From assembly GCA_900299185.1 (NCBI GenBank), contig OMIV01000314.1:1-35230 (forward strand): a stretch of DNA of 35,230 nt. Reading direction: 5' to 3'. The translations under genes were made by a program, and so were the position numbers. Below, in pieces: positions 6,234-17,963 of the stretch (the stretch's first letter is position 1; every line of letters starts with the position of its first letter). The stretch comes from Planctomycetaceae bacterium. Its GTDB lineage: Bacteria > Planctomycetota > Planctomycetia > Planctomycetales > Planctomycetaceae. Under the pieces are notes generated by a model, which saw only the letters and a list, made by a program, of their open reading frames with translations, did not search any database and was not told the DNA's origin.

Positions 6234-6611
6234 ATGCCTCAGTCTTCTCGCGATGCCACTTCACGCCGCAAGTTCTTGAAAGATGGTGCCGTTGTCGCGC
6301 TCGCCGGAACTCCGCTGGTGAATGCGTTGCTGACAACGCCCGCTCATGCGATTTCTTTGCCTGCCACGGGCACCAGTTCTCAAGCCAAATCGACAAGTAC
6401 CGCCGTGGCGCGAATCTCATTGCCCAATCCAGGTGGAACGACAGGGACGACAACCGGAGGTACGACCACGGGAACTTCCGGCACAACGTCGGGGGGAACG
6501 ACGACAACGGGAACGAGCGGTGGTGGCTGCTCGGGAAGCGGTGGAGCGAGTGGGGCAACGTCCGGCGCGAGCAGTAGTGGCGGAGGTCGCGTTCGACCGC
6601 GGCGACGTTAA
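6234..6611 (+). CDS. Small Tat-exported Gly/Thr/Ser-rich protein of unknown function
   Basis: This 125-residue protein starts with a clear Tat signal: SRRKFLKDG at about 10-18, then a hydrophobic stretch and AHA as a likely cleavage site. The rest is almost entirely Gly, Thr and Ser in GTT/GGT-type repeats, with a single Cys in GGGCSGSGG, and ends in RVRPRRR. I recognise no folded domain. The start ATG 6234 is chosen because AAAAGGAAG lies seven bases upstream, while the TTG at 6216 is unsupported. Tat normally carries folded proteins, so a disordered cargo is odd. The mature part may fold on a partner or work as a surface or matrix polymer. It sits between the EF-hand gene and a lipoprotein gene on the same strand. 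Confidence 0.75.
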   Translation: MPQSSRDATSRRKFLKDGAVVALAGTPLVNALLTTPAHAISLPATGTSSQAKSTSTAVARISLPNPGGTTGTTTGGTTTGTSGTTSGGTTTTGTSGGGCSGSGGASGATSGASSSGGGRVRPRRR

Positions 6612-13555: not shown

Positions 13556-14980
13556 ATGCGCCAAGCACTCGCGCTGAATCGACGTTCCTTTTTCGGAAAG
13601 TCCGCTGCCACGGGGCTCAGCACTATCGCTTTGGCATCGTTACTTGAGCCGAGCTTGCTGAATGCCGCGCCACAGAAAGGTGTGCTGGCAGAGTTGCCGT
13701 TGCCTCAGCGAGCCAAACGCGTGATCTGGCTGACGATGGCTGGAGGACCATCTCATTTGGAACTCTACGATTACCGTCCGAAGCTCGCCGAAATGGACGG
13801 TCGCCCGATGCCCGAGAGTCTGACGCGCGGCCAACAGCTGGCTCAGCTTCAAGGACAGAAGTTGGTGTGCTTGGGGCCTCAGTTCAAATTCAAGAAGTAC
13901 GGCCAGAGCGGTATCGAGATCGGAACGTTGCTGCCTCACATTGGCTCGGTCATTGATGACATCTGCCTCGTCCGCTCGATGACAACCGACGCCATCAATC
14001 ACGACCCGGCTCACACCTTCATGAATACTGGATCGCAAATCTCCGGTCGGCCCAGCATGGGTTCGTGGATCACGTATGGGCTCGGCAGCGAGACCGCTGA
14101 TCTCCCTGGCTTCATCGTGATGGTGTCAACGGGCAAGGGCCGGTCGCCGCAGCCGATTGCCATGCGGCAATGGAGCAGCGGGTTCTTGCCTTCTCGGTTT
14201 CAAGGCGTGCAGATGCGAAGTCGCGGTGAGGCCGTGCATTACCTCTCCAATCCGCCGGGTGTCTCGCGCGAGCAGCAAGGAGCGGCGGTCGAGGCCATCA
14301 ATGATCTCAATCGGTTGCTGAACTCGGTTGATCCTGATCCCGAGATTGAGACACGGATTGCTCAGTACGAGATGGCGTTTCAAATGCAGGTGAGTGTCCC
14401 CGAGTTAATGGATCTTTCGACTGAGGATGAGAAGACCATTTCGATGTATGGCTGCCAGCTCGGTGACGGTTCGTTTGCGAATAACTGCTTGTTGGCTCGA
14501 AGGTTGGCTGAACGAGGAGTCCGATTCATTCAGCTCTATCACCGCGATTGGGACCATCACAGTTTGCTGCGCGAAGAGCTTCCGTTGAGAGCACGCGAAG
14601 TTGATCAAGCCTGCGCGGCGCTCATTCGAGATCTCAAACAACGAGGGCTCTTTGACGACACGTTGATTGTGTGGTCGGGCGAGTTCGGTCGCACGCCGAT
14701 GTCTCAAAGCAATAAGGGACCGGTCGGTCGCGATCATCACAACAAGAGCATGTCGATGTGGCTGGCTGGAGCAGGGCTGCGTCGTGGAATGGCTTACGGT
14801 GCCACGGACGATCTGGGTTATGCCGCCGTGGAGAACATCGCCACCGTGCATGACTTGCATGCAACGATGCTGCATCAAATGGGCATTCAGCACAATGCTT
14901 TCAGCTTCAAGTTTCAAGGACTCGACGCGCGGCTGTCCGGTGTCGAAGGTGCTCGCGTGCTGACGGGAATTCTGAAGTAG
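13556..14980 (+). CDS. DUF1501 family secreted protein (copy 2)
   Basis: This 474-residue protein is of the common planctomycete DUF1501 type: Tat-type start (LNRRSFFGKSAATGLSTIAL), VIWLTMAGGPSHLELYDYRP, the GEFGRTPMSQ motif, GRDHHNKSMSMWLAGAG and a C-terminal VHDLHATMLHQMGI segment. In other planctomycetes this subgroup usually follows a DUF1549/DUF1553 gene, with which it may form a secreted complex. Here the upstream neighbour is vapBC on the opposite strand and no partner is seen. Activity is unproven; the fold resembles sulfatases/phosphatases. The next gene on the strand is the NHL-repeat protein, 120 bp away. Confidence 0.92.
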   Translation: MRQALALNRRSFFGKSAATGLSTIALASLLEPSLLNAAPQKGVLAELPLPQRAKRVIWLTMAGGPSHLELYDYRPKLAEMDGRPMPESLTRGQQLAQLQGQKLVCLGPQFKFKKYGQSGIEIGTLLPHIGSVIDDICLVRSMTTDAINHDPAHTFMNTGSQISGRPSMGSWITYGLGSETADLPGFIVMVSTGKGRSPQPIAMRQWSSGFLPSRFQGVQMRSRGEAVHYLSNPPGVSREQQGAAVEAINDLNRLLNSVDPDPEIETRIAQYEMAFQMQVSVPELMDLSTEDEKTISMYGCQLGDGSFANNCLLARRLAERGVRFIQLYHRDWDHHSLLREELPLRAREVDQACAALIRDLKQRGLFDDTLIVWSGEFGRTPMSQSNKGPVGRDHHNKSMSMWLAGAGLRRGMAYGATDDLGYAAVENIATVHDLHATMLHQMGIQHNAFSFKFQGLDARLSGVEGARVLTGILK

Positions 14981-16871: not shown

Positions 16872-17963
16872 ATGACGACGTCCAAAGACCTCTTCGACGA
16901 TTCGACGATGACCTTTGGCGAGCACCTCGAAGTGCTCCGCGTGCATCTGATCAAGGCCATCATCGGCCTGTCGATCGCTGTGATTGGTTGCTTGTTTGTG
17001 GGCGACAAAGTGGTCGCCATCATCCGTGCTCCCGTTGAACGAGCCCTCCGCATTTACGACGTTCAAGTGGAAGACGACGTTGCCAATACGACCTCGCCGC
17101 TGTCTTGGGATTGGTGGAAGCAGCAGAGCGGTTTGAATGTGCTCGATCAGAAAGATCCGCTGGAAGAAGCACGGCTCAGCGTCCCTCCGATCGTTGGTGG
17201 AACGGCAACCGGGCAAACCATTGAAGTCGATGTGCTGCCGTCGGAACTCATCAACGTGCTGCACTCTGCTGACCCTGATCGGTTCCCCAAAGCTACCGCG
17301 AAGGAAGACGAGAAGCCGGTCTCGCTGCGAATGAAGTCGACGGCGTTTACCGAGCTGAATCAGGTCATCGAACGAACGAGCAAGCCGGTAACGCTCAACG
17401 TTCAAGAAGCCTTCATGATGTATATGAAGGTGGCGTTCATTGCGGGGCTGATCGTCGCGAGCCCGTGGGTCTTCTATCAGTTGTGGCTATTCGTCGCGGC
17501 GGGGCTGTATCCTCATGAACGCCGCTACGTTTACATCTATTTGCCGATGAGCATTGTGCTGTTTGTGGGCGGCTGTGTGTTCTGCTTCTATTGCGTGTTC
17601 CCGTTCATGCTTAGCTTCTTGCTGGGCTTCAACAAGATGCTGGGATTGCAGCCGCAGATTCGATTGTCTGAGTGGATCAGCTTTGCCGTGATGCTGCCGC
17701 TGGTCTTTGGAGTCAGCTTCGAGTTGCCGCTCATCATGTTGTTCATGGAGCGGATCTCGATCTTCGATGTCACCGCCTACCGCGAGAAGCGTCGCATGGC
17801 GATTCTGATCATCTCCTTCTTGTCGATGATGCTGACGCCTTCGGCTGACCCGATGAGCATGATCTTGATGCTGATCCCCATGTTGGCGTTGTACGAGTTC
17901 GGCATCTTGCTGTGCTTGTTGCAGCGACCCAAGACGCCGTTCGCTGGTGAGGCAACGGCTTAA
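16872..17963 (+). CDS. tatC: Twin-arginine translocase subunit TatC with large periplasmic insert
   Basis: TatC is the core receptor of the Tat pathway that exports folded proteins. Key features are kept: EHLEVLR at 17-23 (E. coli THLIELR, recognition Glu), RAPVER at 52-57, FYQLWLF at 201-207, LYPHERR at 212-218 (recognition Glu), FGVSFELP at 279-286 and TPSADP at 322-327. Six membrane segments can be drawn. At 363 residues it is about 100 longer than E. coli TatC. The extra length lies in the first periplasmic loop (about 58-175), which is hydrophilic and acidic. The frame stays open 51 codons upstream, but ATG 16872 places EHLE where TatC expects it. No tatA/B gene adjoins it. Several Tat substrates are encoded nearby: the dioxygenase, both DUF1501 proteins and the Gly/Thr-rich protein. 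Confidence 0.95.
   Translation: MTTSKDLFDDSTMTFGEHLEVLRVHLIKAIIGLSIAVIGCLFVGDKVVAIIRAPVERALRIYDVQVEDDVANTTSPLSWDWWKQQSGLNVLDQKDPLEEARLSVPPIVGGTATGQTIEVDVLPSELINVLHSADPDRFPKATAKEDEKPVSLRMKSTAFTELNQVIERTSKPVTLNVQEAFMMYMKVAFIAGLIVASPWVFYQLWLFVAAGLYPHERRYVYIYLPMSIVLFVGGCVFCFYCVFPFMLSFLLGFNKMLGLQPQIRLSEWISFAVMLPLVFGVSFELPLIMLFMERISIFDVTAYREKRRMAILIISFLSMMLTPSADPMSMILMLIPMLALYEFGILLCLLQRPKTPFAGEATA

Follow-up and report, generated by a model that had tools for sequence, protein, structure and literature searches.

An enlarged first periplasmic loop in TatC across Planctomycetia, with a predicted folded module in Planctomycetaceae

The tatC gene of the window, the stretch of 35,230 nucleotides from a Planctomycetaceae bacterium that was analysed here, encodes a twin-arginine translocase subunit with a much enlarged first periplasmic loop (P1), and the enlargement was confirmed as a real feature of the whole class Planctomycetia, of a known kind and mostly ordinary. 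We tentatively favour, with somewhat less than even confidence, a single-copy TatC in which P1 had been enlarged by the base of the class and in which a small module braces or covers the periplasmic cap.

The gene (16872..17963, forward strand) encodes 363 residues plus a stop and was identified by both Pfam and NCBIfam TatC profiles and by the fold of its AlphaFold2 (AF2) model. The Pfam profile PF00902 matched residues 17-336 over its full length (positions 1-208 of 208; E 8.7e-62; 209 bits against a cut-off of 25.1) and the NCBIfam profile TIGR00945 matched at positions 44-215 with 161.5 bits (cut-off 132.7). A structure search with the model placed seven solved TatC entries on top (Z 23.6 to 17.1), followed by an unrelated row at Z 6.0. 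The ATG at 16872 agrees with the common N-terminus of the relatives (xxSKDLFDDSTM and variants). The 7.87-Mb assembly contained a single TatC match, so a second tatC in this genome was rejected. The neighbours of tatC that were scanned encode a DUF1501 protein, an NHL-repeat protein, a phosphorylase-superfamily protein, a protein without a Pfam match, a DUF2079 membrane protein and an ABC ATPase. The DUF1501 protein (13556-14980) begins with a Tat-like motif (RRSFFGKS), and positions 6258-6350 of the window gave the third best Tat-signal match of the genome among the matches listed. The expectation of the preliminary description that many proteins are exported by Tat fits the count for this genome, where at least 63 Tat-signal matches exceeded the family cut-off (99 listed; 150 of the 284 candidates scored).

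The distance between the invariant proline entering P1 and the phenylalanine at its exit is 127 residues in the window (P54-F181) and 20 in E. coli (P48-F68; L066), a net gain of about 107 residues in the alignment. The insert (approximately residues 57-171; 17040..17384, forward strand) separates the P1 helix from the P1 element preceding TM2 and takes the place of approximately K51-T58 of E. coli; its exact ends depend on the alignment and may shift by a few residues. The earlier claims of about 100 extra residues in a first periplasmic loop at about 58-175 were therefore borne out to within a few residues. P2 exceeds that of E. coli by one residue in the alignment. According to the accessible text of Kneuper et al. 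2012 (PMC3712464), K51-T58 is the only part of P1 that tolerates single-residue insertions and deletions in E. coli. The same text notes the variable length of P1, which ranges from 14 residues in Staphylococcus aureus to 248 in the planctomycete Pirellula staleyi, and mentions, with the data not shown, that the extra stretch of larger TatCs falls between the structural elements of P1.

The AF2 model of the window TatC, built with 100 sequences, had a mean pLDDT of 84.4 and divided this region, all on the forward strand, into TM1 (helix 15-42; 16914..16997), a helix entering P1 that holds P54 (44-66; 17001..17069), an acidic linker of variable length (66-111; 17067..17204), a predicted beta-alpha-beta-alpha module (116-171; 17217..17384) and a conserved P1 exit with the helix leading into TM2 (172-211; 17385..17504; AF2 helix 177-211). 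At the exit, E179 is present in 76 and F181 in all 77 of the family sequences, which were picked among L067-L128 by similarity rank, without a taxonomic code. The linker is predicted to be mostly disordered (block pLDDT 44-55 over residues 61-110) and showed little conservation in the family alignment, with an aromatic stretch near W79, a position at which tryptophan occurs in 62% of the sequences filled there (75 family sequences). Its acidic character, which the preliminary description had pointed out, was confirmed: across 71 own-family-like sequences the linker contained 22.3% D+E against 8.9% K+R, and its net charge was negative in 65 of the 71, being -5 in the window.

The module was modelled with greater confidence, as strand 116-121, helix 123-133, strand 150-155 and helix 157-170, with a block pLDDT of 74 for residues 111-120 and 84-97 for 121-170, the blocks within 121-150 averaging 94-97. 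When the module was predicted alone (73 sequences) its four elements were retained at a mean pLDDT of 74.6 and a pTM of 0.43. The higher score in the whole protein would suit docking of the module without proving it; the shorter query may be the sole cause of the drop. V119, L126, L130, H131, P135, P139 and F159 were conserved in 64-92% of 75 family sequences.

Searches for relatives of the module found none with a named family or fold at the sensitivity used and with a module model of modest quality (pLDDT 74.6), which is no proof of a new fold. Pfam gave no match for the module of the window at E up to 0.5; over 60 module members it returned 16 families, all weak (best E 0.0087) and each in one or two members. 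The module profile reached a best E of 0.13 against PDB sequences, and the module model a best E of 1.6 in Foldseek and a best Z of 2.5 in VIA. Its identification as a known domain was therefore rejected. Within the own family, the profile matched 26 of 37 genomes, in all 26 inside tatC, some of these genomes having also contributed sequences to the profile. The 11 genomes without a match comprised nine of genus g38, probably Gimesia to judge by loop length, and two of g8. Matches were found in 32 of the 148 genomes of the class sample, and outside the own family they were weak. All 26 strong to moderate matches (E 4e-5 or better) fell in tatC. The seven weak ones comprise two in tatC (G353, G366) and five outside it (E 0.019-0.039) that look like chance, so use of the module as a domain in other proteins was also rejected. 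Alignment comparisons make it plausible that the P1 inserts of different orders share an ancestor: the first of these (A4 against A6, probability 97.2) was discarded as circular because A4 included the four A6 sequences, and after their removal (A7) the probability against A6 fell to 53.7; the comparison of A7 with A5, a Pirellulales-like set, yielded 80.6 across 23 columns.

To establish how widely the enlargement is distributed, we surveyed TatC in the relatives and in the class. A TatC match was found in 39 of 40 genomes comprising the own genome and its relatives and in 146 of the 148 class genomes. Among the matches listed, 136 of 137 full-length class TatCs spanned 260-356 residues of the 208-position profile (the insert being read from the match span; rows with partial or split matches, 13 by visual count, were set aside). 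The remaining one, a second and divergent TatC of G416, spanned 207 residues; this gene (L161, G416:C91:10310-10930) lacks the insert in a genome of the own family and may be a foreign gene or lie on a contaminating contig. In 129 genomes of other classes among the matches listed, the span was below 225 residues in 89, 225-249 in 9, 250-289 in 26 and 290 or more in 5, counting full-length rows outside the own class without partial or second ones, a set in which divergent TatCs (beyond about E 1e-57) are under-represented. By these listed spans many other classes of Planctomycetota are without the insert, and some other lineages of the phylum appear likewise to have long P1 loops.

In a tree of the TatC core (136 of 161 rows, 25 duplicates, fragments and odd rows, including the short second TatC of G416, being excluded) the 100 class rows formed one group (SH-aLRT 99), the class of the named MAGs resting on their tree position. 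P1 measured 75-379 residues in these rows, with a median of 129 and at least 75 in all 100, and 21-181 residues in the 35 rows of other classes. The latter combine the 21 best-scoring loci (P1 21-91) with 14 chosen for long span (P1 67-181), so a median taken over them would be no survey. As the class rows group together and all have a long P1, the enlargement would predate Planctomycetia or have arisen at its base; the deep branching order is unsure because the tree was built by a quick method without a mixture model and has long branches. The insert is thus neither confined to one strain nor absent in other planctomycetes, the two findings that the preliminary description had named as fatal to it, and was class-wide in our samples. 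The Gimesia-like TatCs L090, L092 and L105 fall within the class with a P1 of 75-83 residues and have a shorter loop of different make-up in place of the module, so they look secondarily changed. Another set of class members (L163, L164, L166 and L128/L165) has a P1 of 189-242 residues, similar in size to the loop described for Pirellula.

Three relatives carry leucine-rich repeats (LRRs) in the P1 linker, over the Pfam cut-off in all three: L103 (3032-4861; 610 residues, P1 374, best E 8.9e-15), L106 (3017-4861; 615 residues, P1 379, best E 2.3e-11) and L162 (180-2174 in G010:C66; an open frame of 665 residues, P1 372, best E 4.8e-19). L103 and L106 are MAG records with some ambiguous bases, of which none was seen in the L162 frame. 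The repeats lie upstream of the module, in a linker that thereby reaches 291-298 residues (46 in the window). The module itself has 56 residues in all three, as it does in the window, and so behaves as a unit. The three form one group in the tree (SH-aLRT 99), so a single graft event suffices to account for them. Since the genome of L162 (G010) has one TatC match and this protein bears about 245 extra LRR residues in P1, the translocase presumably still works with the graft in place. LRR domains are often protein-binding.

Selection on the insert was compared with that on the core in 13 independent close pairs, drawn from 71 sequences after the exclusion of LRR, Gimesia-like, fragment, duplicate and L026 rows. 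Pooled dN/dS was 0.051 for the core, 0.199 for the linker and 0.186 for the module, synonymous sites being near saturation in some pairs. By these sequence comparisons the insert is under constraint, about four times looser than that on the TatC core. A one-strain artefact or a frameshift was rejected, as the insert is class-wide, its frame open and its dN/dS well below 1.

Deme et al. 2026 (PMC13323110) give H12, E15, F94, Y100 and E103 as the residues of signal recognition in TatC. The corresponding residues of the window are H18, V21, F207, Y213 and E216, so the earlier statement that the recognition residues are intact holds for H12, F94, Y100 and E103 and fails at E15, which is V21 (16932-16934). 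Glutamate occupies the E15 position in 14 of 77 family sequences and in 34 of the 100 class rows; outside the class it was found in 29 of 30 sequences (D in the other) and in 33 of 35 tree rows (D in two). Immediately before it, 99 of 100 class rows have E, but so do 26 of the 35 others, and a shift of the contact to this preceding residue is only a guess. M330 of the window (17859-17861) corresponds to Q215, which hydrogen-bonds to the TatB backbone; methionine occupies this position in 97 of 100 class rows, whereas 30 of the 35 others have Q. R264 (17661-17663) corresponds to D150, a position with R in 93 of 100 class rows. A separate TatB was not recognised in the own genome, where the two TatA/B-family matches over the cut-off are both TatA-like, tandem and on a different contig from tatC. 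One to three such matches per genome were found in 21 genomes, and the proteins read looked TatA-like by eye, this listing having relied on a TatA-favouring pattern by which an unusual TatB would be missed. This agrees with the nine tatA and no tatB genes counted in five species of Planctomycetia and Phycisphaerae (Simone et al. 2013, PMC3827258, as far as its accessible text goes). A TatA-like protein may fill the role of TatB, and the earlier suggestion that the insert binds TatB is unlikely.

In the reading that we favour, P1 would have been enlarged at or before the base of Planctomycetia in its length-tolerant part, and the module would lie on the periplasmic side of the TatC trimer, above the P1/P2 cap, which it might brace or cover. 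By analogy with the P2 insert of Myxococcus xanthus it probably packs on TatC or on its copies round the threefold axis, and it would have no part in the binding of signal peptides, which takes place on the cytoplasmic side. Bracing is supported by the position of the insert in the E. coli P1 region that tolerates length change, by dN/dS values of 0.199 and 0.186 for linker and module, by the occurrence of the module in 26 of 37 own-family genomes always within tatC, by its constant length beside the LRR graft, by the TatC-TatC contacts that the folded P2 insert adds in M. xanthus (PMC13323110), and by the role of the cap itself, in which dominant-negative TatC substitutions cluster and give smaller TatBC complexes (PMC5102672, from its accessible text). 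It is weakened by a module dN/dS nearly four times that of the core, by the 11 of 37 own-family genomes without a module match and the replaced loop of Gimesia-like loci, by the weak support for homology with the P1 inserts of other orders, and by the disorder of the Nitratifractor P1 insert (PMC13323110). Several of these points also serve the main rival, an expansion with little function that is tolerated at a permissive hinge and retained for being harmless, which we regard as possible, although rather unlikely. P1 lengths of 75-379 residues among the 100 class rows, the roughly fourfold looser constraint, the Gimesia-like replacement, the disordered Nitratifractor insert and the variable P1 length noted already in 2012 (PMC3712464) are all as expected for it. 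However, dN/dS near 0.19 rather than near 1 in both linker and module, a long span in all but one of the 137 full-length class TatCs among the matches listed, the conserved hydrophobic pattern with a confidently predicted fold, and a module length that stays constant next to the LRR graft argue against an idle loop. The fast change and the replacement in one sub-lineage make the insert look helpful rather than essential.

The remaining explanations assign the insert a binding partner. That the insert is a docking site in the periplasm, whether for exported cargo, for a folding factor or for a component of the envelope, seems improbable: the idea accords with the LRR domains that three relatives carry as grafts in this loop and with the many Tat-signal matches of the own genome, but no partner was found, the linker is little conserved and no known family or fold of the module was found to hint at a ligand. 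Binding of TatA or TatB as an aid to their recruitment we hold to be very improbable, for although M in place of Q215 in 97 of 100 class rows means that the TatA/B interface may differ, a separate TatB was not recognised, and no crosslink to TatB was obtained from L49 or residue 63 of P1 in E. coli (Zoufaly et al., as cited in PMC3712464). A more far-reaching proposal, to which we give little credence, is a distinct Planctomycetia TatAC subtype that combines a cap platform, a changed TatA/B contact (M at Q215), a relaxed twin-arginine contact in Planctomycetaceae (E15 mostly lost), two TatA-like proteins and cargo-receiving grafts; if true, the fast-evolving platform would be a grafting site for domains, even LRRs, that take up or retain folded cargo when it comes out. 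The distribution suggests that a periplasmic extension of TatC is the rule across a bacterial class and not an oddity. How substrate passes the complex is a question to which naturally occurring P1 inserts close to the trimer axis are relevant, and for cryo-EM the insert adds mass to a Tat system in which no TatB is recognisable.

Long P1 loops of TatC are already in print for Pirellula and Nitratifractor, so the kind of feature is known. Our literature search, which covered mostly works other than subscription papers and preprints, found no paper uniting TatC, periplasmic loop, twin-arginine and Planctomycetes and, judged by titles and the starts of abstracts, none on a TatC with a leucine-rich-repeat insert. 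In the accessible parts of the literature found we met neither the module, with its distribution and the selection on it, nor the graft of LRRs, nor the changes at E15 and Q215. The TatC of P. staleyi, likewise from a planctomycete, has a long P1, and the place that the paper gives for the extra stretch of larger TatCs is the one seen here; its P1 is 248 residues against 127 (P54-F181) in the window; in the accessible text of PMC3712464 we found no fold, module, selection or class-wide survey for it. The TatC of Nitratifractor salsuginis (PDB 9E02, PMC13323110) has an insert of nearly equal length before TM2, residues 14 and 174 of the window aligning with its residues 4 and 161 in the structure match, so that calling the insert special to planctomycetes was too strong; its insert is disordered in the complex, whereas the window has a predicted folded module, and the module profile gave no match to this TatC at E up to 10. 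Planctomycete TatCs with an added non-cytoplasmic domain are also known from the anammox Kuenenia TatC-FecR (PMC2881027), in which FecR is a C-terminal fusion while the extension of the window is in P1. TatCs of family f48, which we infer to be anammox (L031, L033, L037-L039, L042, L045-L047, L055, L057-L059), have 425-434 residues with a C-terminal extension and no P1 insert, and Pfam found FecR in L037, the one scanned, which likewise has no P1 insert. Those of families f14 and f76 (L036, L041, L043, L044, L052) have 427-457 residues and a C-terminal extension, and in L041, the one scanned, TatC was the sole Pfam domain over the cut-off. The TatC of M. xanthus (PDB 9E03; isolated periplasmic domain 9E0S) likewise has an extra periplasmic domain, from which transport at the periphery has been argued (PMC13323110); that insert, however, is in P2 and forms a homotrimer, whereas the insert of the window is in P1.
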